DNA of 64,000 bases from Bacteriovoracaceae bacterium (GTDB lineage: Bacteria > Bdellovibrionota > Bacteriovoracia > Bacteriovoracales > Bacteriovoracaceae): NCBI GenBank assembly GCA_017858255.1, contig JAFMBV010000001.1:1-64000 (forward strand), in the 5' to 3' direction. The first letter of the stretch is position 1; every line of letters starts with the position of its first letter. This document shows positions 45,688-61,935 of the stretch, one piece after another. A program made the translations under genes and the position numbers. Below the pieces are notes generated by a model. That model was not told where the DNA came from and did no database searches. It was given only the letters and a program-made list of their open reading frames with translations.

Positions 45688-48600
45688 TTACCTAGAAAGT
45701 GCACGAATTTGATTCTCAACCTGACTCCGATCCGGCGCGTTAGGGTAAAGTTTTAGATAAGTTCTAAACTCTTCTATGGCCAATCCACTTTGACCAACAC
45801 CTTGGTAAATAAATCCTAGCTGTTTTCTAATCTCAGGCATGTCTGGGGCCTGCTTCTTTGCTCTTAGATACAGCTCTCTAGCGATCTCATAATTCCTCTG
45901 ATTTAACTTTATGAAGCCCAGACTCATAAGAGACTCAACATTTCTTGGATTAATTGAAATGGATTTCTCTAGGTTCTTAATGGCATCACTAAACTTACCT
46001 AGTAGACGCTGTGTTTCTCCAAGAATGTAATAACCATTGTAAATCTTAGGATTATTTTCTTTTTCCTTTTCAGCAGCAAGAAGGGCATTCTTATAGTCCT
46101 TCATTTTCAAATAAACCTTAGCTATTAAATAATAGGCGCCTGGGTAAGTTGATAACCTCTTTGTCACGCCTAATAAAACCTCTAAAGACTTTTGGTAGCG
46201 GCCAAGGGAGGCATATGTTTTTCCAAGAAGCATTCTCGTCGTAACATCTCCCGGATTAATTTCTAGCAACAACTCAGCATTAGTAATGACATTATCCATA
46301 TTTTCTTCAATTTGAGCTGCCTTAATTAAGAAAGAGTAAAAGGCTGGATCTTCAGTATTCAAGTTTTGAATTTTTTCTTTCATTTCTTTAAATTGAGCAA
46401 GTTGTCCATTTCGGTAATAAAAGGTGGCAATATCACCCATAAGGCGTGGGTTGTCTTTATTGTCCGTATCGAGTGCAGTCTGAAGGTAACCAATTGCTGT
46501 ATCAGCTCCCTCTAACTCAAAAAGTATTTCTCCATATAGTGATTTATATTCGATATTCAGTGGATCAAGGGTAATGGCCTCAGCAAGCTTGGCCTTACTC
46601 AGATTATACTGTCTGCTTCGGGAATATATTTTGGCCATCAAATAATAATCCTCATCTCGAAGTGGATTCCTTGCAACAGATTGGCTTAAAAACTTAATCG
46701 CGAGAGGATACCTCTTTGCTCTTTCATAGTAGTGGCCAACGACTGACTCATATAAGGGATGCTGCCGCAGCTTAGAATTGGAGATGGCCCCCACCTCTAG
46801 TTGTGCTTCATCGATTTTATTCGCTTCGTACAAGGCCCTAACCAATGCAAAGCTAACGTGTGGATTTCTTGGATATTCTCTTCTTAGAAATGTTAATGTA
46901 TCTATGGCTGATTCAAAGTAGCCTCTTTGAATCTGTAATTCTGCTAAGTTTAAATCTGCAGGTAAAAAGCTTATCTCGAGATCCACAGCTTCAATTGCTA
47001 CTCGAAAGGCATCTTCCCACCGTCTTTCTTTACTAAGTTTTTTCGATTTTCTCATTAAATCGAGGGCCTTTGACTCGAGAATTAATTTTTCAGCGACTTT
47101 TCCACCACCAACTTCAAGACTGGCCAATTTAGAACGAAGTCGATTCGTATCATTAATCTTTAAGGCGAGTTTAAATAGTATTGCAGCCGTTTTCACATCT
47201 TTACCGTAAGCTGAAAGGATACCTAGGTTCTCCAAGTAATTAGCGTAATAAATGGGAGAACCTTCAAAGGATAATTTTTCGATTTGTTTTAAAATTGAGG
47301 AATACCTTTTAAAGTTTTCCTCTCTTAATAAATATTCAGAATAGTTCAAAAGTAGCGCTACAGAAGAGGGGTATTTCTGAAGACCTTCCTCTACAACTTT
47401 TTTTCCTAAATCATACCTTTCATCGAGCGTATGAAAATTACTCATAGCAAGATAGGCTTCAAAGGGTAAGTTTGGATACTCTCTTATTTTTGTTAAAATC
47501 TTTTTTGCTTTTGTTAAGTCGCCTACTTTTATGGCCAAGTCGAGGTAAAGAGAATGTAGCTTTAATGTTGGTTTCCCAACCCTTAGGAAGTTCTCAAGTA
47601 AATTAATCGCACTATTATGTTTGCCATTATTTGCATAGAAAAGAGTAGTCCCTATCGCAATATTAATATCTGTAAGCACCTTTGATCTTGTGATCTTAAT
47701 TAAATTAAAAATTATCGCCGCCCCCTTACTTTTATTCGAGACGTTATTAAAAAGCTCACCATAGGTGAGGATAAGAAAACCAAGGGCGGGGTTATTTTTA
47801 AATTTAAACTCAATACTCTGCTTAAAATAAGTGCTTGCCTCTACTTTACTTAAGTAGCTGCTTCTTCGATAAGCTTCTAGGCCCTTTCTGAAGTTTAGAT
47901 CGGCCTTCTCTTTATCTTCAACTTCGTATGTTATTGGAGCGCTAACCTTTAAATATTTCGGCTCGAATTCTTTTTCCTTTGGATCTTCATCTAAAAGGAA
48001 CCAAATGATAGCGATAAAGGCGATAGCTACTATTGGTGATATTCCCTTCTTTTTCTTCGGCTCTTCTACTTCCTCAAAATCATCATCAGCTTCAACTTCT
48101 TTATTTTTCTCTTTAAGGTCTCTTTTTTTCTCATCCTCAATTTCTCGCTCTAAGCTTTTTGCTTCTCTTTTCAAACTAACTAGTGCATTTCTATCAATAA
48201 ACTGAGTGCTCTCATCAAAACCTACTTCTTCCTCCCGTGCTTCCTCTGCTGCCTCTTCCAGCTCCTTTTCTTTTTCACGCTTATTAATTTCAAGTTTTTT
48301 CTTTTGCTCTTCTTGTTCTTTAAACCACTTCATTGCCTCAGGGTTTACTTGGGTCTTATCAACATCATTAACTTGCTTTCTTTTTAGAACCACCGTTTTT
48401 TCAAAAGAATCCTCTTCCTCTGGTGTCTCTTCTTCAATTTCTTCTTGGATTGATGGTTCTGGAACCTCATCTACAGTTTTTTCATTATACTTTTTCTCCA
48501 AAGCTTCATAATCAAACAATTGACTGGGGTCCTCTCTAGTAAACCTAAATTCTTGATGTTCACTCTTTTGTACACTTTCTTGTAGCTCTTCTACTTTTTT

Positions 48601-48915
48601 TATTTTTTCACTCTGACTCTCTTCTTTTTCTTTTTTCCTTTGAGCTTCTTTTTGTTTTGCCAAAGAGATTCTAGCGATTGTTGAATCATTATCCCCTTCC
48701 TGATCAGAGGCAACCACTTCGCCTTTAGCTAAAGAACTTAACAAATTATTTATCTCTGGAATCATAGAAATACTTTCCCAATCACCTGTTGGAAAAATTT
48801 GAGCAGTCTCGTCGCCACCAATATGTCCTTTGCTATATAATTCCCCAACTTGGGAAATTGCAAAAGGACCGACAATCCGACCATTAGAAAGTTTTATTCG
48901 ATATTTTTTGGCCAT
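45688..48915 (-). CDS. Large TPR membrane protein with N-terminal GYF_2-like domain (1075 aa)
   Basis: N-terminal 55 residues (YRIKLSNGRIVGPFAISQVGELYSKG, PTGDWESIS) match a GYF_2/DUF4339-type sensor domain. A long acidic, Glu/Lys-rich, disordered segment with KTVVLKRK-like and DKTQVN-like tracts follows to about residue 285, then one membrane helix (ISPIVAIAFIAIIWFLL) and about 700 residues of TPR repeats (for example LGKTYASLGRYQKSLEVLLG, LGETQRLLGKFSDAIKNLEK). The N-terminus is thus cytoplasmic and the TPRs probably periplasmic. The ATG overlaps the stop of the seven-gene Nuo-like block, so it is the last gene of that operon. A scaffold or assembly factor is likely. Confidence 0.8.
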   Translation of the reverse strand: MAKKYRIKLSNGRIVGPFAISQVGELYSKGHIGGDETAQIFPTGDWESISMIPEINNLLSSLAKGEVVASDQEGDNDSTIARISLAKQKEAQRKKEKEESQSEKIKKVEELQESVQKSEHQEFRFTREDPSQLFDYEALEKKYNEKTVDEVPEPSIQEEIEEETPEEEDSFEKTVVLKRKQVNDVDKTQVNPEAMKWFKEQEEQKKKLEINKREKEKELEEAAEEAREEEVGFDESTQFIDRNALVSLKREAKSLEREIEDEKKRDLKEKNKEVEADDDFEEVEEPKKKKGISPIVAIAFIAIIWFLLDEDPKEKEFEPKYLKVSAPITYEVEDKEKADLNFRKGLEAYRRSSYLSKVEASTYFKQSIEFKFKNNPALGFLILTYGELFNNVSNKSKGAAIIFNLIKITRSKVLTDINIAIGTTLFYANNGKHNSAINLLENFLRVGKPTLKLHSLYLDLAIKVGDLTKAKKILTKIREYPNLPFEAYLAMSNFHTLDERYDLGKKVVEEGLQKYPSSVALLLNYSEYLLREENFKRYSSILKQIEKLSFEGSPIYYANYLENLGILSAYGKDVKTAAILFKLALKINDTNRLRSKLASLEVGGGKVAEKLILESKALDLMRKSKKLSKERRWEDAFRVAIEAVDLEISFLPADLNLAELQIQRGYFESAIDTLTFLRREYPRNPHVSFALVRALYEANKIDEAQLEVGAISNSKLRQHPLYESVVGHYYERAKRYPLAIKFLSQSVARNPLRDEDYYLMAKIYSRSRQYNLSKAKLAEAITLDPLNIEYKSLYGEILFELEGADTAIGYLQTALDTDNKDNPRLMGDIATFYYRNGQLAQFKEMKEKIQNLNTEDPAFYSFLIKAAQIEENMDNVITNAELLLEINPGDVTTRMLLGKTYASLGRYQKSLEVLLGVTKRLSTYPGAYYLIAKVYLKMKDYKNALLAAEKEKENNPKIYNGYYILGETQRLLGKFSDAIKNLEKSISINPRNVESLMSLGFIKLNQRNYEIARELYLRAKKQAPDMPEIRKQLGFIYQGVGQSGLAIEEFRTYLKLYPNAPDRSQVENQIRALSR

Positions 48916-50057
48916 TATCTAATACTTATAAGTACACCGATAATTATAGCCGATAGTGTGAGGGGATTTGCTAAATGGTCAATTTTTCTCTCTTTTTGAA
49001 AGGAACTCTTAAATTCAATCCAAAAAATTAAATTTAGAAACCAAAATAGTCCAATAAAGTAAAATACACTTAAACCCATCCCCTCTAAAGAAGAGGTTTT
49101 TATTGCCTGATCTAAGAATTGACTGATATTTCCCCAAAACAATCCAGACATTCCGAGGAAACTAAATAAATATAGGTAGGGCCTTACCTTTTCTGAGCAT
49201 TTTAAAGAACGACTAATATAAGGTAGGTAAGAATATATATTGAAACACAAAATTACTTTCAATATATCTTCATTAAAAACATTATTTTGACTGAAGTAAA
49301 TTATTATCAAAAACAGTTCTCCAGACCTTTTAAATACCTTCCATAACTCAAGGCTTGATCGTGAAGAAAAAATAGTTAATATGGCCAAGCAAAATATTGC
49401 GACCTGACTTCCGAGAAGTACCTCATGTGGAATAATAAAATTTGTTTTTAAAATTACAGCTACGAATAAAATTGCTCTATTTGCCAGTGGATAAGAGTAA
49501 TCTTTTAAGGCGTCCTTATCTAGACCTAATGGAATTAACTCATTTGATAGCCAATACAAAAATACCAACATCCCCATACCAACAACTTGTGAATTTATTT
49601 GAGCCATTAAAAACGCTAAAGAAATTACTGTTATGGTAATAAATGTCTTCTTTATCGTATAAATCCAATTACCTGGACCCATATTTAAAAAAAGTTGGAG
49701 TATAAAGAAGAAAAACAATATGCCCCAATAGTTTTCAACATTAAGAAATTTAATAATTAGATGGATCGAGAGTATAAGTATCAAGGGAACAGAAAAGTGT
49801 GGCACTAAGGTACGATTGGCCAAGTCCGCAGGTCTAGTAAATTGAAATAATATAATTTCCACAGCAACAAGATAGAAGAAACTAGAATGTGGACCACTAA
49901 CCAAAACACCTCTACTTAAAAAGAGGTCTAACATTATGTCTATTAATAAAGCTACAATGACAATGACTGTAACTAATTGCCCTGCTCTTTGAGCTTTAGG
50001 CTTACCAGCCCCCAACAACATGCTAATAAAAGTTATCACTGACATTGCTATAGTCAT
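48915..50057 (-). CDS. Divergent NuoN/HyfB-like membrane protein, module gene 7 (380 aa)
   Basis: About 10-11 membrane segments. By eye it lines up with NuoN from this window: YPLANRAILFVAVILKTNFI with the TM segment containing the conserved Lys (NuoN SPLPVTAFFSIVPKVAGL), ELWKVFKRSGELFLIII with the VKRMLAYSSISHAGMML helix, and FSFLGMSGLFWGNISQF with FSLAGIPPFSGFVAKF. The first membrane helices of NuoN appear shortened. I use ATG 50057, which overlaps the previous stop (AAAATGA) and follows GAGGGA; a TTG at 50084 is possible. Probable antiporter-type subunit, possibly inactive. Confidence 0.6.
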   Translation of the reverse strand: MTIAMSVITFISMLLGAGKPKAQRAGQLVTVIVIVALLIDIMLDLFLSRGVLVSGPHSSFFYLVAVEIILFQFTRPADLANRTLVPHFSVPLILILSIHLIIKFLNVENYWGILFFFFILQLFLNMGPGNWIYTIKKTFITITVISLAFLMAQINSQVVGMGMLVFLYWLSNELIPLGLDKDALKDYSYPLANRAILFVAVILKTNFIIPHEVLLGSQVAIFCLAILTIFSSRSSLELWKVFKRSGELFLIIIYFSQNNVFNEDILKVILCFNIYSYLPYISRSLKCSEKVRPYLYLFSFLGMSGLFWGNISQFLDQAIKTSSLEGMGLSVFYFIGLFWFLNLIFWIEFKSSFQKERKIDHLANPLTLSAIIIGVLISIR

Positions 50058-51124
50058 TTTATTCCCTCTACTCTTCGTGCCCAAACAGCACGAGTAAAGT
50101 TATTTTCAAAGAGAATATACAGAAGGACAAAAACACTAAACAACTGCGGAGCTGAAGCCTTATATTTGATAAAAACCATTATTAAGACTGGTATTAAGAA
50201 AATTAACAAAACCCCCAACTCAACCTTAACACGAGAAATAACCTTTTTTAAATTACCCCAGTACATCCATGGAGAACATAGCGGTATCAGGATTATCATA
50301 AAAGAGTATTCGTTCGGTAAGTTTAGGGAAAGCAAAAGAATTGCTGGTAATATTAAATTTCTACCACTGTTTCTTTTAAGCAGGTACCAACCGATTACAA
50401 ATATTGCCGTTAATAAGTCTGAGTTAGTTGAAGAGAAGGGCAGGTGTGTCTTCAGTAATATTAAATAAAAATAAAGAGATAATGTCTCTAACCAGAATGC
50501 TCGTTGCCCAGTCTTAGTAAAAGACTCCATACCACGAGTAAAGCTTATCAAAACAACAAAATATAAAATTAAAAACAAAGATTTTAACGTTAAAACGACG
50601 TTTATATTTGAAGTGATCTGATAAATATTTTCGTAATATTCGGCTCCCCCCAAATACACTTCAGATATCTTAATTATTAAGTAAACGATAATTGCGCCAA
50701 AGTAATTAATCATGCTACGAAATGGATTTGAAATAGAGTCATGTAATCTAATTAATAGAACGAAGTAAAAGAGATGCAAAAAACTTATATAGTTACCATT
50801 AAATAACAATAATCCTATTTGGATAATTAAAATATTTACCGGCTTACCAACCAAGGGTCTCTTGTTAAAAAGAGTAAGTAGGTACCATACCCACAAGGAC
50901 ATCACGAAAGTATTAGTGTAAGACAACAACATGTGCTGTGTTGTTAAAACGCCAACATATACGGCCCAGCCCCATGTTATGAGAGAAATTGATACTGGTA
51001 AGTACCTTAAGCTCTTACCTTTAAAAAGATTGAAATTATAAAGGAATAAAGCGGTCGTCCCGATTAATGCAATCACTTCAAGACCCCGATTATGTAGGTA
51101 AACCATAACAAGAATATTAAACAA
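50054..51124 (-). CDS. Divergent NuoM/N-like membrane protein, module gene 6 (356 aa)
   Basis: About ten membrane segments, no signal peptide. Weaker likeness to antiporter-type Nuo subunits: LSLYFYLILLKTHLPF resembles the Lys-bearing helix of module gene 7 (VAVILKTNFI), followed at the same distance by a polar break and another helix (LILPAILLLSLNLPNE). The longest frame begins at TTG 51124, overlapping the previous gene by 52 bases; ATG 51106 is the alternative. Neither has a clear binding site, suggesting translation by coupling. Confidence 0.5.
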   Translation of the reverse strand: MFNILVMVYLHNRGLEVIALIGTTALFLYNFNLFKGKSLRYLPVSISLITWGWAVYVGVLTTQHMLLSYTNTFVMSLWVWYLLTLFNKRPLVGKPVNILIIQIGLLLFNGNYISFLHLFYFVLLIRLHDSISNPFRSMINYFGAIIVYLIIKISEVYLGGAEYYENIYQITSNINVVLTLKSLFLILYFVVLISFTRGMESFTKTGQRAFWLETLSLYFYLILLKTHLPFSSTNSDLLTAIFVIGWYLLKRNSGRNLILPAILLLSLNLPNEYSFMIILIPLCSPWMYWGNLKKVISRVKVELGVLLIFLIPVLIMVFIKYKASAPQLFSVFVLLYILFENNFTRAVWARRVEGIK

Positions 51125-52416
51125 ACAGTTATTGAGTAAGAAAAGTTTGGTAGCTTAAAATGCTTCGAATTATGATAAGTTTTTGGCATGCTTCTATTAT
51201 AGGCAATTTTTATATTATTACTTTTGGAGACTCTACGAGGAGCATCCCATTCTACAGAATGAGAAACCCTAATTACTCTATTAAATACAACCCTTTTTTT
51301 GTTCGCTATATAGACCATACCCACTGTTATAACTAAAAATAGTACTGAGAAAGGATTAATGGCCACATAAGTGGATGCTGTTGCATAAAGTAATAAAGAA
51401 GCGAGTAAGATCCATGATGAAAGTTCAAAATATTTCATCTCATTCTTTTGAGCCGGTTTATCTACCTGATAAATCTGCTTTAACAATAATATCAAGTACC
51501 CAAAACCAATAGATAAATAGGCAAGGGGAGATGTATATATCTTCTCATAGGCCCATGCGAGTGGAGTTCCATAAACACCTACCACCATTAATGAAGCCAA
51601 TAGTATGTAAAAAATTTGAGAATAGCTTAGTAGCAACTTTCCTTTTTCGACTTCTATATTTTTCAACTCTACGAAGAGAGTATTTAAAATCACAATCGAT
51701 GAGGTAAATATATTAAAGATGACCAAACTTGTTAGGTAGATATTTTCTGATTTTACGAAGGCCATAGTTAATATGGCCAACCACATAACTTTATACTCAA
51801 TATTCTTCCTTACTATTAAGATAAAAATTATCGTTAATGCCGATAGGCAGGATAAAACGAGTAAAGATTGCTCCCTTAATTGTGGTGCTATAAAAAAAGC
51901 TCCCATAACCATAAGGTAAGAGATATCGCTATTCTTTTTAGACAGAGTTAAATAATTCACCAAATTGCCTATAAAAAATAATGGTAAGAATATTTCAGCG
52001 AGCTCAACTCTAAAGTAACTTGTATAAAAGCCTAAAGTAGTCCCAAGAAGGCCCAGGAGGGTAGTTGGAAAGTCTTGTTTCCATAATCCTTGTAAAAATA
52101 TTAAAAGATAGCAATAAGGTAAAAACTTTGAATAATCACCTTCTAGCTGGCTAAACACTAAAGCAAACATGGGAAACATTAAAGTTACATGGTTTTCTAA
52201 ACTACCTTTAGTGAAGTAAAATAAAAAGAAAGTAGCTAAAAGGGAATATTGATATATAGGCTCTATTCCGCTACTTAGTCCCAACAAAACAACAAAAAAC
52301 ATCATCAAGAGACTTTTAAAGAGAGTGGCGGCCGTAATATTACGATAACTATAATTTAAAGTTTTTGTGTAATACAAAATCAAAAATAATAACCATGCTA
52401 CTAGTGTAAGTATCAT
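51073..52416 (-). CDS. Divergent NuoM/N-like membrane protein, module gene 5 (447 aa)
   Basis: About eleven membrane segments and a polar, basic C-terminal loop before a last helix. Near residues 260-290 SYSQIFYILLASLMVVGVYG is followed by GTPLAWAYEKIY, which resembles the G-x-P-x-x-x-x-F-x-x-K signature of Nuo/Mrp antiporter subunits (compare AGIPPFSGFVAKF in NuoN). The start codon overlaps the preceding stop (ATGA). Charged membrane residues needed for proton pumping are not evident. Function inferred only. Confidence 0.55.
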   Translation of the reverse strand: MILTLVAWLLFLILYYTKTLNYSYRNITAATLFKSLLMMFFVVLLGLSSGIEPIYQYSLLATFFLFYFTKGSLENHVTLMFPMFALVFSQLEGDYSKFLPYCYLLIFLQGLWKQDFPTTLLGLLGTTLGFYTSYFRVELAEIFLPLFFIGNLVNYLTLSKKNSDISYLMVMGAFFIAPQLREQSLLVLSCLSALTIIFILIVRKNIEYKVMWLAILTMAFVKSENIYLTSLVIFNIFTSSIVILNTLFVELKNIEVEKGKLLLSYSQIFYILLASLMVVGVYGTPLAWAYEKIYTSPLAYLSIGFGYLILLLKQIYQVDKPAQKNEMKYFELSSWILLASLLLYATASTYVAINPFSVLFLVITVGMVYIANKKRVVFNRVIRVSHSVEWDAPRRVSKSNNIKIAYNRSMPKTYHNSKHFKLPNFSYSITVCLIFLLWFTYIIGVLK

Positions 52417-52658
52417 CTTATTACCTTACTTTCTCTTTTAGATTTTCTTGGGTAAAAGACAATAGTAAGAGACATGGATATTATCATCAGTAGGGGCACA
52501 AAATTATCAAGATTATCCCTCTTTAAAACAATAAAGAAATAGAGCGCCATAAACATTAAGTAATTTATCCCTGTATAAATAATGGTGCTATTATTTTTTG
52601 ATAACAGGAGCTTGATCATTAGAGACATACAAAAGAACATTATTAGTGCACCAGTCAT
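52413..52658 (-). CDS. Small NuoK/HyfE C-terminal-like membrane protein, module gene 4 (81 aa)
   Basis: Three membrane helices. LLLSKNNSTIIYTGINYLMFMALYF has the shape of the 'L..rN.i.iL.giElm.Na' loop and helix of NuoK/HyfE, but the helix Glu that is conserved in proton transfer is replaced by Asn/Thr. Overlaps neighbours by four bases at each end. With module gene 3 it may form the two halves of a split HyfE. Confidence 0.55.
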   Translation of the reverse strand: MTGALIMFFCMSLMIKLLLSKNNSTIIYTGINYLMFMALYFFIVLKRDNLDNFVPLLMIISMSLTIVFYPRKSKRESKVIR

Positions 52659-53083
52659 AATCTGTTTCTCCCTCTTTGGAAGGCATAAATCGAAAGTGCT
52701 GTTATTATAATTAAGATTATTTCAAACATAATAAGAACTTCTGGTCCTATAACTAAACCTAAAAAGCCTGCCTCTATCTTCTCTCTATTTAAAAAATAAA
52801 TACCGAAACTAGGCAGAAAGGCTAAATATGTGACAACCTTTTCATGAATAGTTGAGTGTTCTTTTGTCTTTGTAAAAACTAATGACTTTTTGGCGACGAA
52901 TACGACCGGTAACACGATGCTCACGAAAAGCATCATTTCTATCGGGCCTTTTATAATCCAAACAACAAGTGATGTTATTAGTAAGTTTATCATTATGGTC
53001 GCCATCGGTCTCTTTTCACCACCAATGAGAGTGATCAAGCCTAATACCAAAATAAAAGTGAGGACCATATTTTCTTTAATCAT
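52655..53083 (-). CDS. HyfE N-terminal-like membrane protein, module gene 3 (142 aa)
   Basis: Five hydrophobic segments. The first three (LTFILVLGLITLIGG, IMINLLITSLVVWIIKG, MMLFVSIVLPVVFVAKK) match HyfE in order and spacing, including the third helix ending in a K/P-containing turn. Overlaps module genes 2 and 4. Likeness is by pattern; a different small membrane protein cannot be excluded. Confidence 0.5.
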   Translation of the reverse strand: MIKENMVLTFILVLGLITLIGGEKRPMATIMINLLITSLVVWIIKGPIEMMLFVSIVLPVVFVAKKSLVFTKTKEHSTIHEKVVTYLAFLPSFGIYFLNREKIEAGFLGLVIGPEVLIMFEIILIIITALSIYAFQRGRNRL

Positions 53084-53924
53084 TTAGTCTTATTACTCGT
53101 TTTGTTTTTATTAAACTATATTTGAATACCCAAACTATAATAATACAAAAAATAAACTTGGCTATCATACTTATACTCTGAAGCAATACCGTTTCTAGAC
53201 CAGGGGAAAAGTTCTGCTTTTCCAAAATTGATGGAAGTCCATATCCTCCTAGAAATCCAAAAATAAACATGATTATATAAGTATTAAAAAACAAGTGGTT
53301 CACGAGGGTAAAGTTTGTCTTTGGATTTTCGATCTCAGTGTACAAAAGATTTAAAATCAAAATTAATCCCAATGGATTGTTAATTAAGAAGTAATTTCTT
53401 AGTCCATACTCATTAAAGCTTTTTTGATATTGTACCATTTGCTCAACGGAGAAAGATGGAGAATAGATTACAAAAGTTAGTAAAATTCCGAGTAGTAATG
53501 GCACCTTATAGAAAATTTTCTTATAAGTAGGATCATACAGACTTCTTAAAATTTCACTAATTATTAGTATGCCAAAAAAGAATAACCAAGAGTTCTCGTT
53601 GGAGATAATGCCTAGATAAACCTCAGTTCCTGCGACATCGAAACGATCTGATAGTTGTACAAAAAATAATGGTAAGATCGCAGAAAGGACTGTTCCCATG
53701 TATAGAGCTATACTGAAAAACTTCCCCCTCTTTTCCTGAATATAGAATCCATTGTTTTCATTAAAAATTCTTAACAGCAAAACCTTAAGTATTGTTAAAT
53801 TGGCTATTTTTTTACGGTTGAAGATCGTAATAAATTCTTCTCTAATCCAAAGAGAAAAGCACAGTAAGAAGAACAGCAACACTAGAAAATGAATTGCCTT
53901 TATTGACTCTAAAAATACAAGCAA
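53076..53924 (-). CDS. Degenerate NuoH/HyfC homologue, module gene 2 (282 aa)
   Basis: The clearest member of the block. It aligns end to end with this window's own NuoH: the IFNRKKIANLTILKVLLLR loop (NuoH TYAERKISADIQL...GLLQ), SIALYMGTVLSAILPLFF (NLAPLLALIGVFATLAVLPF), LINNPLGLILILNLLYTEIENPK (LHNPFTFIAFFVFFIGMLAETN), FGFLGGYGLP (AAFLGGYKVP), ISMIAKFIFCIIIVWVFKY (FLTKTLFLYYVVIWVRWTF). The NPKTNFTLV stretch is nearer to the D-N-P-x-T motif of hydrogenase-4 HyfC. Lost: the RQGPNRVGP quinone loop and ETNRAPFDLPEAE. Start TTG 53924 with AAGG 7 bases upstream. Confidence 0.65.
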   Translation of the reverse strand: MLVFLESIKAIHFLVLLFFLLCFSLWIREEFITIFNRKKIANLTILKVLLLRIFNENNGFYIQEKRGKFFSIALYMGTVLSAILPLFFVQLSDRFDVAGTEVYLGIISNENSWLFFFGILIISEILRSLYDPTYKKIFYKVPLLLGILLTFVIYSPSFSVEQMVQYQKSFNEYGLRNYFLINNPLGLILILNLLYTEIENPKTNFTLVNHLFFNTYIIMFIFGFLGGYGLPSILEKQNFSPGLETVLLQSISMIAKFIFCIIIVWVFKYSLIKTKRVIRLND

Positions 53925-53933
53925 ACCTTAACC

Positions 53934-54206
53934 TTATGTTTTTCTTTGTATAAAATTAACAAAAGCAGTCACGATTAAAAGACTCATAATTATTTTAGGA
54001 CTTTCGCTGAATAAAGAGTAATTAATGTTTCTAAATTTTATAAAAATCAACCATGTAATTAGCGGCAACAAGAAAATAATAAAGCTAAAGTTTTCGATTT
54101 GATTACTAGAAAATGCCTTATGTGAGTTTGGCTTTCTTGAGAAGTAAACTAGGGTTGTTAACAGTAAGAGTAAAACAACCCCTGTAATTATGGCGCTAAT
54201 ATACAT
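53934..54206 (-). CDS. Small membrane protein directly after nuoN, module gene 1 (90 aa)
   Basis: Three membrane helices: VVLLLLLTTLVYFS, FSFIIFLLPLITWLIFI and IIMSLLIVTAFVNFI, with a polar loop (SRKPNSHKAFSSNQIEN). The ATG immediately follows the nuoN stop (TAAATG), so it is translated with it. I recognise no family; the layout is vaguely like NuoA or the start of HyfB, without its Glu/Asp. Confidence 0.5.
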   Translation of the reverse strand: MYISAIITGVVLLLLLTTLVYFSRKPNSHKAFSSNQIENFSFIIFLLPLITWLIFIKFRNINYSLFSESPKIIMSLLIVTAFVNFIQRKT

Positions 54207-55673
54207 TTATTGGAGGAAAACCTTTGCGCCATCCGCCAATACAATGAGCTTTTCCCAGAATAAACCAAGCACAACCACCGGAATGGTCAAGGCCACAACT
54301 GCCCCCTGGTTGAATATATTAAAGCCTGAAATAGCCTCTTCACTTTCTGGATCTTTTAGCATCATTAACCGTACTATTTTTAAATAATAGTAAAGGGATA
54401 CAACTGAATTGATACCTGCGATAACGGCCAATACATAATATTTTTTGGCCAATAGAGCGGTGAAGATATGAAACTTCGCTACAAATCCACTAAACGGTGG
54501 AATACCCGCTAGACTGAACATCACAATACATAAAGCGATCGCCATGAGGGGATATCTAAATGCAAGACCGGTAAAACGCTCAAAGTGATCATTTCCATAT
54601 TTGTCAGAAACAAACGATACGACATAGAATGCCGCCAAGGTCATAAAGAGATAGGTAACTGAATAAAAAATTACGCTTCTAGTTCCCAACTCACTTATAA
54701 CCAAAACACCCATTAACATCATGCCGGCATGAGAGATCGAAGAATATGCTAACATTCTTTTTACTGACCTCTGTCCAATTGCACTGACATTACCAACCGT
54801 CATTGTTAGGGCAGCAACTATCGATAAAACACCTACCCAACCAATATTTAAAGCGCCAGGGTTTGCAAAGAATGTCTGGGACACTCGTATTAAGGCAGCT
54901 AAACCAGCTACCTTTGGTACGATGCTAAAAAATGCTGTAACTGGTAACGGTGAACCCTCATAAACATCTGGTGCCCACATATGAAATGGCACACAAGCGA
55001 TCTTGTATCCAATCCCTGCAAAGAAGAATAAGAATGAAGGCAAGAGAATCGCAATTTGTGTCGTATCTACTGTACTTAGAACCACTGCCATTTCAGTAAA
55101 ATTTATACTTCCTAGTACTCCAAAAATATGGCTCATACCAAAGAGCATAATTCCAGAACTCATTCCGCCGTAAAGAGAGTACTTCAACCCTGCCTCAGAG
55201 CTTCTTTCATCGCCCTTCTTTAAACTTGCGAGTACATAAGAGAGAATTGAGAGAGTTTCAATACCGATAAATAACACCAGCATATTGTTCGCCGACGAAA
55301 GTAGCATCCCGCCAACAAGCACGCCTGTTGCCATGATTATAAATTCAGGCTTTAGGTTTCCTTCAATGTCATTACTTGTACTAGCTAGATATACGGCTCC
55401 AATAGTTCCTAAGACCATGACCATTTTCATAAGAGAAGAAAATGAGTCAATAATTAGACTATTGGTAAAGATTGCAACAGGTTCCTTACCTAATGAAGCA
55501 AAAGAAAATACCAGTACCGATACTAAACCGATTCCGGCAGCTAGAAATAGAAAGCCTCTCCCTTTTTCCTCTTCCTTATAAGTTGCCTCGATAAGGATGA
55601 GTCCAAACATAGTAAGACAAGCCAATAGCTCAGGAATGAAATGACTTAAACTTGCTAAATAATTCTGTCCCAT
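54207..55673 (-). CDS. nuoN: NADH-quinone oxidoreductase subunit N
   Basis: Antiporter-like proton channel subunit of complex I. Fourteen membrane segments; NNMLVLFIGIETLSILSYVL (with the helix Glu), VPFHMWAPDVYEGSPLPVTAFFSIVPKVAGL (Lys), VKRMLAYSSISHAGMML and SLAGIPPFSGFVAKF are complete. 488 residues. It follows nuoM by 13 bases. Confidence 0.96.
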   Translation of the reverse strand: MGQNYLASLSHFIPELLACLTMFGLILIEATYKEEEKGRGFLFLAAGIGLVSVLVFSFASLGKEPVAIFTNSLIIDSFSSLMKMVMVLGTIGAVYLASTSNDIEGNLKPEFIIMATGVLVGGMLLSSANNMLVLFIGIETLSILSYVLASLKKGDERSSEAGLKYSLYGGMSSGIMLFGMSHIFGVLGSINFTEMAVVLSTVDTTQIAILLPSFLFFFAGIGYKIACVPFHMWAPDVYEGSPLPVTAFFSIVPKVAGLAALIRVSQTFFANPGALNIGWVGVLSIVAALTMTVGNVSAIGQRSVKRMLAYSSISHAGMMLMGVLVISELGTRSVIFYSVTYLFMTLAAFYVVSFVSDKYGNDHFERFTGLAFRYPLMAIALCIVMFSLAGIPPFSGFVAKFHIFTALLAKKYYVLAVIAGINSVVSLYYYLKIVRLMMLKDPESEEAISGFNIFNQGAVVALTIPVVVLGLFWEKLIVLADGAKVFLQ

Positions 55674-55686
55674 GAGTTATTCCTAT

Positions 55687-57219
55687 TTAGTATGTAGCGA
55701 GCATACTTACGAGTTTACCGACCGATGCTCTCATCACATTTAGTACGGGTGAGGGATAAATCCCAAATACAACTACGGCAACACAAAGTGGCACCATAAA
55801 AGCGATTTCTCGAGCATTCATATCGGTGTATGATTTACATTCCTCTATAACGTCACCAAAGAACATTCTCTTAAACATCCACAGCAGGTAAGCCGCTCCA
55901 AGCAATAAACCGATCAAGGCCAAGACTGTTATCGTCGTGTACTTCTCGTATATACCTAAGAAAATCAAAGCTTCTGATATGAAGCCAGATAGACCAGGTA
56001 GACCCATAGAGGCAAACATTGCGATGATAAAGATAATCGTAAACTTTGGAAGCTGTGTATAAAGACCTCCGAAGCCTTTGGATCCGTCTGGTCTAACAAT
56101 CCAGCGGTGATGTGATCTCTCGTAAAGTATTCCGATCAAAAGGAACATCATGGCCGTTGAAGTACCGTGATTAAACATCTGAAGAACAGCACCGTTCATA
56201 CCCGTAACAGTCATTGCAGCAAGACCTAGCATCACAAATCCCATGTGAGATACAGAAGAATAGGCCACAAGTTTTTTAACGTCGGTCTGAGCCATTGCAC
56301 AAAATGCGCCATAGATCACATTTATTAAACCTAACCAAGCTATTGCATCCGCAAAATGTACTGATGCACCTGGAAAGATTGGGAAAGCTATTCTTAAAAA
56401 GCCATAAGTACCCATTTTAAGCAGAACACCGGCAAGTATGACTGATACTGCTGTTGGAGCCTGTACGTGGGCATGCGGTAACCATGTATGGAAAGGGAAT
56501 ACTGGCACCTTAATAGCGAAACCAATGAATAGGAAAATAAAGAATAATTTTGAAAAGCTTAACGTTGTTCCGAATAGTTCTATAGTTAAGTCTGAGAACC
56601 TTCCTCCTTGTAGAGCAAGAATACTGAAACTATCAACACCCTTACCTGAAGCGTAATATAGCGCAACCATTCCAACGAGCATTAAGATTGATCCGAAAAA
56701 CGTATAAAGAAAGAATTTAACTGCAGCATACTCTCTGTTTTCTCCTCCCCAAATTCCAATCAGGAAAAACATCGGTATCAACATCACTTCCCAGTAAACG
56801 TAGAAAAGGAAGAAGTCCAAAGCAAAGAAAACACCAAACACGGTAGTCTGAAGAAATAAGAAAAGAGCAAAGTATCCTTTTATCTGTTTTGTAACAGTCC
56901 AGGAGGACAGAATACAAAGCATAAAGAGTAGCCCTGTTAGAATAATCATTGGTAATGATATTCCATCAACTCCTAAGTTATAAAAGATATTAAAGCTACT
57001 AATCCATGGGATCTTCACATTAAAGGCTTCTTGCATACCTGGAACACTGGTGTCGAACTTTGAATAAAGAACCAACGTCAACACAAAGGTAATCGCAGTA
57101 TTTACCAATGCCCACCAGCGAATTAAGTTTTCTTTTGATTTAGGTATTAATAAAACACCTATGACACCAATAAATGGTGTCCACAAAATCCAGTTTAAAA
57201 GATTTGATGATGCCTGCAC
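55687..57219 (-). CDS. nuoM: NADH-quinone oxidoreductase subunit M
   Basis: Second antiporter-like subunit, 510 residues. FYVYWEVMLIPMFFLIGIWGGENR with its Glu, KVPVFPFHTWLPHAHVQAPTAVSVILAGVLLKMGTYG, DVKKLVAYSSVSHMGFVMLG and GLPGLSGFISEALIF are all present. An intact proton channel in a full membrane arm. Confidence 0.96.
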   Translation of the reverse strand: MQASSNLLNWILWTPFIGVIGVLLIPKSKENLIRWWALVNTAITFVLTLVLYSKFDTSVPGMQEAFNVKIPWISSFNIFYNLGVDGISLPMIILTGLLFMLCILSSWTVTKQIKGYFALFLFLQTTVFGVFFALDFFLFYVYWEVMLIPMFFLIGIWGGENREYAAVKFFLYTFFGSILMLVGMVALYYASGKGVDSFSILALQGGRFSDLTIELFGTTLSFSKLFFIFLFIGFAIKVPVFPFHTWLPHAHVQAPTAVSVILAGVLLKMGTYGFLRIAFPIFPGASVHFADAIAWLGLINVIYGAFCAMAQTDVKKLVAYSSVSHMGFVMLGLAAMTVTGMNGAVLQMFNHGTSTAMMFLLIGILYERSHHRWIVRPDGSKGFGGLYTQLPKFTIIFIIAMFASMGLPGLSGFISEALIFLGIYEKYTTITVLALIGLLLGAAYLLWMFKRMFFGDVIEECKSYTDMNAREIAFMVPLCVAVVVFGIYPSPVLNVMRASVGKLVSMLATY

Positions 57220-57252
57220 GGATCTTCTCCTTTCTCTTCTATATACAACGAG

Positions 57253-59421
57253 TTAAATATTTAAAGTCCAAATGTAACCAGTCAGTACCAAAATGATCAC
57301 AATAAAATAAAATTGGATCTTTCCGGACTGAATAGTTCTTAAAATTACATTAAAAAAGCGAACACTAGCGCCCGTTCCATCAACAGCAACGGTGTCGACA
57401 ATAATATTGTCAAACCAGTTGGCCATAGTGAACAAGACTCTGTTTACCTTTTCCCAGCCATCGATAGCATAGCGGTCGTAAATTCCCATATCGATAAAGG
57501 CCAACAAGTTATTTAAAGGTAAAAGTCCTTTTTGAATAAAGCCTTTTATATAAACGTCATCAAAGTAGTACTTATTTTGAAGCGCCCTATACCATCTTGA
57601 GAATAGTGATACCCAAAAACCAGGATTCCAAGATCTCCAGAAATACATCATCGTTGCAATGAACACGCCAGAGAAAGCAATGACAATTGAGACTAAAGCT
57701 CCGATATGATGAATGTGATGAACATGGTGGGCTTTTTCGGCACTTAAGCCGTGGTTGCTGTCATATTTTGATTTAGTGAAAGTTTCAGTGCTTGAATTAT
57801 TAACAAAACTAAACGGCTGAGACTGACGGTTGTTAAAACTCGCTAGGTTTGGTTTCACAATCAATGTTTGAAACCACTCAAATTTTTCACCGGCAACTTT
57901 AATAAAGCCCTGCCCAGTTAATGAACCAGAGTAAAATAAACCTAGTGTAAATAATGAAAGAATAAGTAACGGAAGGTTTCTATTCCAACTTAAAGTTTCT
58001 TTTTTCGTATGGTCATAAAGCTCTTTATCTCTTGGCTCCCCAAAAAATGTTAAGAACATCATTCTGAACATATAAAATGCTGTCAGAAGTGCTCCGCCGA
58101 AACCGAGTAGGGCAGGACCCCAGTAAACTTTGTTATCAAGGGCCATTAATAGGGCATCACCAAGAATTCTATCCTTTGAAACAAAACCACTAAAGAATGG
58201 AATGCCTGCAATTGCCAATGTACAGAAAAGCATGGCCAAGAATGTGTAAGGCATTTTATTTTTTAATCCACCCATCCGTGGCATTTCCTGCACGTGAGCA
58301 TGAGTGTGGTGATCATGAAGTGAATGAATTACCGAGCCTGCAGATAAGAATAAACATGCTTTAAAAACTGCGTGAGTTATTAGATGCATAAAGGCTGCGT
58401 TATAAGAGCCAACCCCAACTCCCAATACCATATAACCAAGCTGAGAAATTGTAGAATAGGCCAATACGGCTTTTATATCTGTTTGGACTAGTGCAATTGT
58501 TGCTGCACCAAAAGCTGTAATCCCACCAATATAGGCAATAAGCGTAGTTAAATTTCCTGCCTCCATAAGTGGATAGCAACGCAAACTTAAGTAAACACCT
58601 GCAGCAACCATTGTCGCCGCATGAATTAGTGCTGAACAAGGAGTCGGTCCCCACATCGCATCTGGCAACCAAACCTGGAGAGGAACTTGGGCTGACTTAC
58701 CAATTGTTCCCATAAATACACTAAATCCTGCAAACGTAGCGAGCGGTATACCTAGGGCATACAAGCCGTTAAATTTTCCCATACCTATGGCCTGATAGAT
58801 ATCTACAAAAGATACGCTACCAACTACCGACCAAATGGCCAAAATACCGAGTAAGAAAAATACATCTCCCACTCGTGTTGTCATAAAAGCTTTCATTGAT
58901 GCATTACCTGCACCCTCTTTTTCATAGTAAAAGCCAATTAGAGAATAAGAACAAAAGCCCATTAGTTCCCAAAAGATAAATACTGAAATTAAGTTTTCCG
59001 AGAGAACTAGAGCAAGCATCGCACTTGTAAATAATGAGAGATAAACGAAGAACCTTCCATATCTTTTATCATCACGCATGTAATAGGTTGAAAATATATG
59101 AATTAAAGACGCAACACCCGTAACCATAAAGAGCATAGTTGCAGTCATGTTATCTATATATATTCCCATATCCATTTTAAATGGAAACGATCCATAAGAA
59201 AGATCAAACCAGGTAAATGTTTTATGAATATAGTAGTCGGCGCTAAAGACGTTTAAAAAATCAAAGAACACTCTGGCTGCGTAGAAGAAAGAACCTATTA
59301 CGGAACCACAGCTTATAATTACTGCTAATGTTGTAAAACGCTTTACAATGAAAGCATTAATCACAAAAGCAAAGAAAGGTAATAAAACTATTGGGGCAAT
59401 CGTACTAATCGTATATTCCAT
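57253..59421 (-). CDS. nuoL: NADH-quinone oxidoreductase subunit L
   Basis: Distal antiporter subunit with the lateral helix, 722 residues, longer than usual. FIFWELMGFCSYSLIGFYYEKE, VPLQVWLPDAMWGPTPCSALIHAATMV, DIKAVLAYSTISQLGYMVLG and AGIPFFSGFVSKDRIL are intact. An insert of about 60 residues near 530-590 is polar and ends in a His-rich HHVHHIHHI stretch, which may bind metal. nuoK precedes it by 17 bases. Confidence 0.95.
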   Translation of the reverse strand: MEYTISTIAPIVLLPFFAFVINAFIVKRFTTLAVIISCGSVIGSFFYAARVFFDFLNVFSADYYIHKTFTWFDLSYGSFPFKMDMGIYIDNMTATMLFMVTGVASLIHIFSTYYMRDDKRYGRFFVYLSLFTSAMLALVLSENLISVFIFWELMGFCSYSLIGFYYEKEGAGNASMKAFMTTRVGDVFFLLGILAIWSVVGSVSFVDIYQAIGMGKFNGLYALGIPLATFAGFSVFMGTIGKSAQVPLQVWLPDAMWGPTPCSALIHAATMVAAGVYLSLRCYPLMEAGNLTTLIAYIGGITAFGAATIALVQTDIKAVLAYSTISQLGYMVLGVGVGSYNAAFMHLITHAVFKACLFLSAGSVIHSLHDHHTHAHVQEMPRMGGLKNKMPYTFLAMLFCTLAIAGIPFFSGFVSKDRILGDALLMALDNKVYWGPALLGFGGALLTAFYMFRMMFLTFFGEPRDKELYDHTKKETLSWNRNLPLLILSLFTLGLFYSGSLTGQGFIKVAGEKFEWFQTLIVKPNLASFNNRQSQPFSFVNNSSTETFTKSKYDSNHGLSAEKAHHVHHIHHIGALVSIVIAFSGVFIATMMYFWRSWNPGFWVSLFSRWYRALQNKYYFDDVYIKGFIQKGLLPLNNLLAFIDMGIYDRYAIDGWEKVNRVLFTMANWFDNIIVDTVAVDGTGASVRFFNVILRTIQSGKIQFYFIVIILVLTGYIWTLNI

Positions 59422-59438
59422 CTTTTATCCCTAAACCT

Positions 59439-59744
59439 CTAGCTTTGAAGTTGAGCAGCATCATCAATATGGATTGTTTCTTTGATTTGGAAAAATCTAA
59501 TAACAATCGCAAGGCCAACGGCTGCTTCTGCGGCAGCAATTACAATAATAAACAAACTCATTAAATGCCCTTCAAGGTTATTATTTATAAACCTTGTGTA
59601 GGCGGCAAAATTTAAAGCTGCGCTATTTAGAATAAGCTCGATTCCCAACATCATCGCAATGATATTTTTTCGAGCTATCATAACAGCTATACCTGCTATA
59701 AAGAGCGTGAATGAAATAAAAAGATAAGATGATAGTGAAATCAT
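59439..59744 (-). CDS. nuoK: NADH-quinone oxidoreductase subunit K
   Basis: Three helices, 101 residues. ARKNIIAMMLGIELILNSAALNF carries the conserved Glu in the second helix, and AEAAVGLAIVIRFF is the third helix with its Glu. Normal in all key positions, unlike module gene 4 further down. Confidence 0.96.
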   Translation of the reverse strand: MISLSSYLFISFTLFIAGIAVMIARKNIIAMMLGIELILNSAALNFAAYTRFINNNLEGHLMSLFIIVIAAAEAAVGLAIVIRFFQIKETIHIDDAAQLQS

Positions 59745-59753
59745 ATTATTTCC

Positions 59754-60281
59754 TTAACCTTTTCGAGGTCTTGCAATAACAGCTGCGCCAACAAGTGCAC
59801 CCAGTAATAAAATTGATGATATTTCAAATGCAAGTACGTGATCCGTTACCAGTAAAGTTCCAATTTTTTCAACTGTTGATGAAAAAGCTGGTAATTCACC
59901 TTTTGTGTAAGATTTCATAAAGTTTGCCATGAGCTTTAATACGGTAAATGAAATTACCAAAACACTAAAACCTGCAATTACATAAGTTTTGGTGCTACCC
60001 ATAGCTGGTATTTTTTCAATACCAAACTTATTGGAATTATCAGAGCTACCACCCGTTAACATAACGGCAAAGAGCATAAGAATAACAACGCCACCAGCGT
60101 ATATTACTAACTGTGCTGCCGCGAGAAAATCAGCTCCAATAACTGCATACAGTCCAGCGATTCCAAAAAGGGAAGCCAGCAACAATACACAGGCATGCAT
60201 TAGATTTTTTGAGAAAACAACACCAGCGGCACCAATGATACAAAGGGCTGCTGATAAGAAAAATAGTATATTTTCAAACAT
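59754..60281 (-). CDS. nuoJ: NADH-quinone oxidoreductase subunit J
   Basis: Five-helix subunit of 175 residues. SKNLMHACVLLLASLFGIAGLYAVIGADFLAAAQLVIYAGGVVILMLFAVML is the family core, with the flexible pi-helix region. Nine bases separate it from nuoK. Confidence 0.95.
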   Translation of the reverse strand: MFENILFFLSAALCIIGAAGVVFSKNLMHACVLLLASLFGIAGLYAVIGADFLAAAQLVIYAGGVVILMLFAVMLTGGSSDNSNKFGIEKIPAMGSTKTYVIAGFSVLVISFTVLKLMANFMKSYTKGELPAFSSTVEKIGTLLVTDHVLAFEISSILLLGALVGAAVIARPRKG

Positions 60282-60295
60282 AACTAACTCCTACC

Positions 60296-61495
60296 TTAAT
60301 GGCCGCCGCCATGGGCTCCGCCGCCGAGATGACTTAAGACTTCCCAGATTGATTGACCATCAAAAGCAAAAACCCACAAGGTTATACCTACAAGATTAAA
60401 TAGTGCTATTGGTGTTAAGTACTTCCAACAAATTGTCATTACCTGATCTACTCTAATCCTTGGGAAGGTCCATCTAACCCAAATTACGACATAATAGAGA
60501 AATAATGTTTTTGTTAAGAAAGATCCCATTTGTAGTAATTGACCAATATTTTTACCGATGATGGCAGGTAGTCCGAGCTTTTCTACAAACACAACACCAT
60601 TTCCAAGATCAAAAGGCACTTTATAGCCACCCAAAAATGCTGCTGCCGCGACTCCGCAAAGAACAAATACTTCTATATATTCTGCGAGAGCAAAAAGACC
60701 AAATCGCATTCCAGTGTATTCAGTGTGATAACCAGAAACCAGTTCAGACTCAGCCTCAGGCAAATCGAAAGGTGCTCTATTCGTTTCGGCCAACATACCT
60801 ATGAAGAAAACAAAGAACGCTATAAAGGTGAAAGGGTTATGAAGAATATACCACTGATGGGGAAAGCCACCCTGAGTTTCTACGAAACTACCAAAACTCA
60901 TTCCACCGGAAATTAAGACGATAGATAGAATTGTTATTGTTACAGGAACTTCATAACTAATAATCTGAGAGGCACCTCTCATCCCGCCAAGCATTGACCA
61001 TTTTGAGTTAGCTGAATAGCCCCCCAAAAATACAGCAACACCAACAAGGGAAGACACACCGATTAAGTAAAAAACACCAATATTGAGATTTGTTAGCGTA
61101 AAGCCAGATGAAAAAGGCAGTACGGCCAATGTTGCAAATACTCCGATGAGTGCAAGTAGAGGAGCTAAGTTAAAAAGTGTTCTGTCTGCTTGAGCAGGAA
61201 AGATATCTTCTTTCATAAGCATTTTCACGCCGTCAGCGAGAAACTGAAGAAGACCATAAGGACCAACTCTGTTTGGTCCTTGTCTAAGCTGAATATCTGC
61301 TGAAATTTTTCTTTCAGCATAGGTACCTAAACCACCGACCAAGGCCATCACGTTTACAACGAGAAAAGAAGCTACCGCAAAAACCAAAAATGTCACTAAA
61401 CCAGAGGCATCAAATCCCAAAACTTCAGAGATGAAACCAATAGCTTTTCGATGAGCTTCGAATTGATTTAGATAATCATTAATAGAGGGACTCAT
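60296..61495 (-). CDS. nuoH: NADH-quinone oxidoreductase subunit H
   Basis: Connects the quinone chamber to the antiporter subunits. LRQGPNRVGPYGLLQFLADGVK, AETNRAPFDLPEAESELVSGYHTEY and WVRWTFPRIRVDQ are intact. 399 residues; the C-terminus carries an extra GGGAHGGGH tail. It overlaps nuoA by four bases: nuoB, C, D, E, F, G and I, normally between A and H, are missing. Confidence 0.96.
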   Translation of the reverse strand: MSPSINDYLNQFEAHRKAIGFISEVLGFDASGLVTFLVFAVASFLVVNVMALVGGLGTYAERKISADIQLRQGPNRVGPYGLLQFLADGVKMLMKEDIFPAQADRTLFNLAPLLALIGVFATLAVLPFSSGFTLTNLNIGVFYLIGVSSLVGVAVFLGGYSANSKWSMLGGMRGASQIISYEVPVTITILSIVLISGGMSFGSFVETQGGFPHQWYILHNPFTFIAFFVFFIGMLAETNRAPFDLPEAESELVSGYHTEYTGMRFGLFALAEYIEVFVLCGVAAAAFLGGYKVPFDLGNGVVFVEKLGLPAIIGKNIGQLLQMGSFLTKTLFLYYVVIWVRWTFPRIRVDQVMTICWKYLTPIALFNLVGITLWVFAFDGQSIWEVLSHLGGGAHGGGH

Positions 61496-61935
61496 GCCTT
61501 CTCCTCAATACCTTTTAATTGATTAACTTGATCTTCACTTAACTGGAAGGATCTTACCCAATCAAGGTCACCCTTGCTCCAGCAGTAAATAATTCCAAAA
61601 ACTAAAACAGATATAAATACTAATAATGAACCAACTAATACTGCACCTTCGCCAATGGCCACAAACTTTCTAAAGATTGCTGCTACTGGAAACATAAGTG
61701 CGCCTTCAACATCAAAAACGATAAAGACTAAAGAAACGACATAAAACCGTACGTTGAAGTTGGACCAAGCTGTCCCAACAGGATCCTCTCCACATTCATA
61801 AGCTTGCTCCTTAAGAGCACTGGGCTTAAAGGGTCTAAGAACTTGAGCGACAAAAACAGCTACAACTACCAAACCCACGGCCAAAGCCATAAGAATGATA
61901 ACCGGCATGTATACGTCTAAGGTATAGGACGTCAT
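61492..61935 (-). CDS. nuoA: NADH-quinone oxidoreductase subunit A
   Basis: First gene of this Nuo operon, 147 residues, three helices. The loop YECGEDPVG with its Cys, FYVVSLVFIVFDVEGALMFP (helix with Asp-x-Glu) are conserved. A GGAG element 10 bases upstream of the ATG serves as binding site. Upstream a 143-base gap separates it from divergent mfd; promoter not clear (a TTAATATAAC stretch near 61948 could be a -10 region). Confidence 0.94.
   Translation of the reverse strand: MTSYTLDVYMPVIILMALAVGLVVVAVFVAQVLRPFKPSALKEQAYECGEDPVGTAWSNFNVRFYVVSLVFIVFDVEGALMFPVAAIFRKFVAIGEGAVLVGSLLVFISVLVFGIIYCWSKGDLDWVRSFQLSEDQVNQLKGIEEKA

Follow-up and report, generated by a model that had tools for sequence, protein, structure and literature searches.

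Few membrane machines have been studied as much as respiratory complex I (NDH-1, NuoA-N), parts of which are known to be shared with antiporters and hydrogenases. Here we describe a relative of it encoded in a 64,000-nucleotide stretch of DNA from a Bacteriovoracaceae bacterium (the window; positions 1 to 64,000 of contig JAFMBV010000001.1, assembly GCA_017858255.1). The window carries one complex I membrane arm encoded as nuoA-H-J-K-L-M-N (complex I-1; 54207-61935), and beyond its nuoN lie seven further open reading frames (ORFs). Judged from synteny and from a graded series of related loci, this block encodes a second complex I membrane arm, that of complex I-2, in the canonical order A2-H2-J2-K2-L2-M2-N2. 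Together with a soluble operon elsewhere in the genome, it probably forms a two-operon complex that is now a membrane scaffold, neither pumping nor reducing quinone.

Complex I-2 shares with complex I the seven membrane subunits in order, counterparts of NuoB, CD, F, G and I, the NuoH fold and intact homologous sets in relatives. It differs in lacking the quinone-site, NuoK-glutamate and antiporter residues and the NADH/FMN domain, and its L, M and N subunits are weakly constrained and shortened, from about 675, 493 and 460 aa to 447, 356 and 380 aa. Eleven-subunit forms of complex I without NuoEFG, namely cyanobacterial NDH-1 and the Campylobacter types, keep the quinone-reducing and pumping residues; complex I-2 resembles them in having no NADH-oxidising module, but has lost the catalytic and pumping residues that they retain. 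Complex I-1 of the window appears to be of this eleven-subunit kind. Its nuoB-C-D-I genes are grouped on another contig (G000:C179, L083) and NuoE, NuoF and NuoG are seemingly missing; no protein with the NuoF NADH/FMN domain (PF01512) was found in the six genomes of the genus that were tested.

Hydrogenase-4 and the group 4 [NiFe] hydrogenases (Hyf, Hyc) also combine NuoH- and NuoL/M/N-type membrane subunits with a NuoD/B/I-type peripheral arm, but complex I-2 has no HyfE match, its small subunits being NuoJ and NuoK. No NiFe-binding CxxC pairs are conserved in the alignment of its large subunit, which is of NuoCD type with NuoD as the best models. Mrp antiporters have relatives of NuoL/M/N and small membrane subunits, but no NuoH, NuoB, NuoCD or NuoI, the best conserved parts of complex I-2. 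Pseudoenzymes in general lose catalytic residues and retain fold and selection; here, in contrast, the candidate is a whole multi-subunit complex over two operons. Novelty was judged against the open-access literature and family libraries of the Pfam/NCBIfam type. In the literature searched we found no comparable case of a complex I pseudoenzyme, and nothing relevant on complex I in Bacteriovorax or Bacteriovoracaceae or on inactive complex I paralogues; the main text of a recent prokaryote-wide survey of complex I mentions neither Bdellovibrio nor degenerate copies (PMC12361115).

Identity of the membrane block

The seven ORFs lie on the minus strand between the nuoN stop (54207) and a TPR gene (48915) and are as tightly packed as the initial annotation had described, with one abutment (nuoN and the first ORF), one 9-bp gap and otherwise overlaps. 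Seven equivalent ORFs occupy the same locus in five congeneric species and across many other genera, among Bacteriovoracaceae genomes that are mostly draft metagenome-assembled genomes (MAGs). All seven proteins stay below the Pfam and NCBIfam cut-offs, with matches no better than chance, and a single-sequence search of 59 relatives with the 282-aa protein gave matches confined to the genus. A promoter scan was at chance level, and the terminator-like sites, 8 where 4.5 were expected, carry no interpretable signal.

What these genes are became visible from relatives. In G026 and G020, the complex I-1 nuoN is followed by an intact-looking second set, A (120 aa), H (350), J, K, L (626-675), M (487-493) and N (456-460), and G034 has the A-H-J-K beginning of such a set, running up to the contig end; the intact second copies that were tested are recognised by Pfam. 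Other genera form a graded series at this locus, with L2 lengths of 668, 608, 537, 510, 447 and 293 aa, and several have no block there. Because intact A-H-J-K-L-M-N sets occupy the same slot and the series leads from them to the degenerate form, the window's block reads as nuoA2-H2-J2-K2-L2-M2-N2, an order that profile comparisons support for H and J and weakly for K and A. The initial annotation had proposed a second, degenerate complex I or hydrogenase-4 membrane module. The complex I part of that proposal stands, with all seven subunits in canonical order, including as NuoA the 90-aa first protein that had been left unassigned. The hydrogenase-4 part lacks support, since the two small proteins taken for halves of HyfE match NuoJ and NuoK best and have no HyfE match among Pfam/NCBIfam models.

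Further stages occur elsewhere in the family. A reduced block in G010 (contig C5, L060) consists of A2, H2, J2, K2 and one 214-aa membrane ORF in place of L2/M2/N2, followed by the TPR gene, and in G028 (contig C79, L141) a semi-intact complex I-2 (L 631, M 520, N 460 aa) is the sole NuoH-bearing complex.

We compared degenerate subunit sets with intact and intermediate ones, seven by seven, using hhalign. H2 matched NuoH and no other subunit, J2 matched NuoJ, and the best matches of K2 and A2 were NuoK and NuoA (values in Table 1). Pooled sets gave no signal for L2, M2 or N2. Profiles built clade by clade linked intermediates to intact L (98%, 51%), M (94%, 64%) and N (98-100%), and L2 of the G008 genus matched an intermediate L2 at 75%. 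As the window's own L2, M2 and N2 are without a direct match and the intermediates are linked, their putative identities rest on position and on this chain of intermediates.

The likeness of the 282-aa protein to NuoH, already seen in the initial annotation, was borne out by profile searches, which returned NuoH only, and by a structure search. A profile of degenerate H2 sequences alone matched three PDB sequences, all of them NuoH (1.8e-5). The AlphaFold2 (AF2) model of H2 (pLDDT 82, pTM 0.85) found complex I entries, through NuoH/ND1-type chains, in all of its 50 best PDB fold matches, 31 of them at E<=0.001. The predicted fold of the protein is that of NuoH/ND1.

Recent tandem duplication of complex I-1 was considered as the origin of the block and is disfavoured, given the fused NuoCD of complex I-2, the presence of NuoEFG in its intact form and an identity of only 37-39% between intact CD2 and NuoD1. 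The TPR gene was rejected as a part of the complex, as it occurs in most family genomes with or without the block. In the window it encodes a GYF/TPR protein of ~1060 aa with one transmembrane (TM) helix (45688-48915), and in most family genomes its place beside nuoN or the block is fixed, including genomes that lack complex I.

Table 1. Genes of the degenerate complex I-2 membrane arm in the window and the adjoining complex I-1 gene; percentages are hhalign values
Gene	Description	Position	Strand	Basis
nuoA2	degenerate NuoA-like, 90 aa, ~3 TM helices	53934..54206	-	position of intact nuoA2 in relatives; NuoA is best profile match, weak (17.6%)
nuoH2	degenerate NuoH/ND1, 282 aa, TTG start	53076..53924	-	NuoH only (99.1%); PDB matches; AF2 fold
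nuoJ2	degenerate NuoJ, 142 aa	52655..53083	-	NuoJ (94.3%); position
nuoK2	degenerate NuoK, 81 aa, 3 TM helices, conserved Glu lost	52413..52658	-	NuoK 58.6% vs NuoJ 27.5%; residues; position
nuoL2 (by position)	shrunken NuoL, 447 aa	51073..52416	-	synteny and graded series; homology visible via intermediates only
nuoM2 (by position)	shrunken NuoM, 356 aa; conserved start probably near 51106, giving 350 aa	50054..51124	-	synteny, graded series, intermediates
nuoN2 (by position)	shrunken NuoN, 389 aa; conserved internal start near 50057, giving 380 aa	48915..50084	-	synteny and graded series; intermediates 95-100% to NuoN
nuoN (complex I-1)	context, outside complex I-2	54207..55673	-	directly upstream of block

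A separate soluble operon and the fate of catalytic residues

The initial annotation saw no catalytic subunit, which is right for the block and wrong for the genome: contig C55 of the window's genome (G000) encodes degenerate NuoB, NuoCD, NuoF, NuoG and NuoI. The lead came from PF00346, which in most of the 20 genomes searched marks a further protein of NuoD type; this protein is a fused NuoCD within an operon away from the block. In the intact relative G020 the operon reads lipoprotein-B-CD-E-F-G-I, and on G000:C55 of the window's genome (read as L082) it comprises the lipoprotein, B2 (181 aa), CD2 (543), F2 (297), G2 (449) and I2 (170). B2, CD2, G2 and I2 are recognised as NuoB, NuoCD, NuoG and NuoI, and F2 shows no more than a residual signal for the Fe-S region of NuoF (PF10589, E 0.01). 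By our tally, membrane block and soluble operon co-occur in about 26 genera, and both are missing in genus g60 and in G009. Two genomes depart from this pairing: G030 has CD2 without the block, and G019, which is 66% complete, has the block with no CD2 found.

At the head of the soluble operon stands a conserved lipoprotein of ~530 aa with about ten conserved cysteines and no known family (L082:10611-12227, on G000:C55). It survives loss of the complex in G024 and G012, and for this reason its place as an obligate part of complex I-2 is uncertain.

Alignment of six genus members shows which residues are gone. NuoH2 retains FLGGY and one lysine and has lost the acidic quinone-side residues, and in NuoCD2 the quinone-site histidine and tyrosine motifs have changed from GPSHPATHG to GPHSSPFNG and from YTDRLNY to FFFERLC. 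At the aligned positions in the genus there is no NuoA Asp/Glu, no NuoK Glu and no Glu/Lys of L, M or N, the L/M/N alignments being weak; the initial annotation had already noted the loss of NuoH quinone motifs and of the NuoK glutamate. Even species of the genus do not share the antiporter-like K-helix patterns once read into the three large proteins; their alignment contains no conserved Lys/Glu in L2, M2 or N2, and a candidate antiporter-type lysine in N2/M2 was rejected on the same alignment.

Iron-sulfur (Fe-S) ligands have fared differently. Within the genus, NuoB2 retains all four N2 ligands, NuoI2 both CxxCxxCxxxC motifs (N6a, N6b) and NuoG2 16 cysteines. Elsewhere, at least seven lineages still encode NuoB2 but have lost its ligands, and at least four have done the same with NuoI2; the NuoI2 cluster ligands persist in most genera.

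Constraint and competing explanations

Between G000 and G002, nonsynonymous divergence (dN) is 0.004-0.066 for complex I-1 subunits and about ten-fold higher for the block, where it ranges from 0.10 (H2) to 0.73 (M2) and synonymous sites are almost saturated. Simulated neutrally to the protein divergence observed, the 447-, 356- and 389-aa genes would have acquired ~20, 16 and 12 internal stops; they contain none. Because the frames are open and synonymous sites nearly saturated, selection acts on the block: its ORFs are under purifying selection and are not chance ORFs.

This constraint is strongest where the two arms meet (NuoH2, A2, B2, CD2, I2) and declines outward in this genus. Arranged by physical position, an order established for complex I, G000-G002 identities along the membrane arm are H 84%, A 76%, J 58%, K 68%, N 57%, M 32% and L 36% (rho -0.93), and the better conservation of NuoN2 than of M2 and L2 fits position in the complex, not in the operon. 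Two other genus pairs gave rho of -0.96 for copy 2 versus -0.07 and -0.21 for complex I-1. On the soluble side, CD (82%), I (83%) and B (80%) stand against G (59%) and F (55%). H2 has 50 residues invariant within the genus, many of them polar or charged. The gradient suggests that the proteins may continue to form an assembly with the topology of complex I.

Na+-NQR has been reported in Bacteriovorax marinus (PMC4014512). Of 20 genera with a degenerate complex I-2, 17 have the Na+-NQR gene nqrF above cut-off, versus 0 of 3 with an intact, NuoEFG-bearing one (p 0.011, counted by genus, post hoc, ignoring phylogeny and mostly from draft MAGs); the genomes of the latter genera, G020, G063, G072 (g15), G034 and G105, have no nqrF above cut-off. 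The three degenerate cases without nqrF (G029, G035, G100) each encode a further NuoH-bearing complex at another locus, and NuoF is present in G029 as well. In the window's genome nqrF lies ~9 kb from the second soluble operon (G000:C55:34631-35842), and linkage within about 10-25 kb also occurs in G002, G008, G011, G013, G016 and G027.

Probably, in our view, NADH oxidation passed to Na+-NQR or to another complete complex I, after which complex I-2 would have ceased quinone reduction and pumping. It would still assemble as a membrane-anchored, complex-I-shaped body whose working part is the B2-CD2-I2 module on the NuoH2 heel, a core retained for a non-catalytic task. In this genus, where the N2, N6a and N6b ligands remain, an electron-accepting or sensing role is possible; since other genera lose cluster ligands and keep the proteins, a role shared by all would be independent of electron transfer. 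Whether complex I-2 is a pseudoenzyme as a whole, a family-wide scaffold with a new function that has lost NADH oxidation, quinone reduction, pumping and often its Fe-S clusters, seems to us evenly balanced on the sequence evidence.

Fe-S retention also invites another explanation, that of a redox-active relic in which the NuoG2-I2-B2 chain feeds a non-quinone acceptor or senses redox state, with only pumping and quinone reduction lost. The ligands kept in the genus, and those of NuoI2 in most genera, speak for it, but NuoF is without its NADH/FMN domain, NuoG2 and NuoF2 are among the faster-evolving soluble parts, and NuoB2 and NuoI2 outlive their ligands in the lineages counted above; we regard it as unlikely. 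Quite unlikely is functionless slow decay of a complex made redundant by Na+-NQR, with frames open only since truncated membrane proteins are harmful. Complete loss in several lineages, reduced stages such as G010 and the very fast change of L2 and M2 would fit such decay, but between G000 and G002, whose synonymous sites are close to saturation, H2, CD2, I2 and B2 still share 80-84% of their residues, the invariant H2 residues include many polar or charged ones, and the set is kept without stops in about 20 genera.

That the degenerate arm docks beside complex I-1, regulating or stabilising it, was suggested early on, and the zero gap to the complex I-1 nuoN makes co-transcription possible. 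This reading is nonetheless very improbable: G015 (96% complete), G017 and G021 keep the block with canonical NuoH not found, so complex I-1 is not needed by the block, and the intact form is a separate full complex. The idea of an independent ion channel or antiporter formed by the membrane arm alone, prompted by a membrane-rich block with NuoL/M/N-type positions, finds no support and is the most remote of all, given that antiporter residues are lost in the genus, L2 and M2 are the least constrained subunits there and the peripheral arm is co-retained.

Several points weigh against the scaffold explanation itself. We infer expression, assembly and function of complex I-2 from its genes. For L2, M2 and N2 of the window there is no direct match by sequence or structure, and the AF2 model of L2 is of low confidence (pLDDT 46), with no significant Foldseek match. 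In this genus and in some others the outward gradient is plain; several pairs at about 25% identity show it only weakly, not at all or in reverse. The whole set is missing in G101-G104 and G009 and is dispensable there; Fe-S ligands are kept in many genera, where redox chemistry may be alive in places; and the nqrF comparison, post hoc and blind to phylogeny, belongs here too.

Implications

A nearly full set of complex I subunits would thus be kept despite the loss, judged from residues, of NADH oxidation, quinone reduction and pumping, with intermediates from intact to erased. Such a series would amount to a natural mutational scan of the contacts that hold complex I together without catalysis. 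It also exposes a blind spot of family-based annotation, in which all seven proteins of the block went unrecognised. For the Bacteriovoracaceae, it points to a possible displacement of complex I by Na+-NQR and to a candidate new, non-respiratory role for complex I-2 in these relatives of predatory bacteria.

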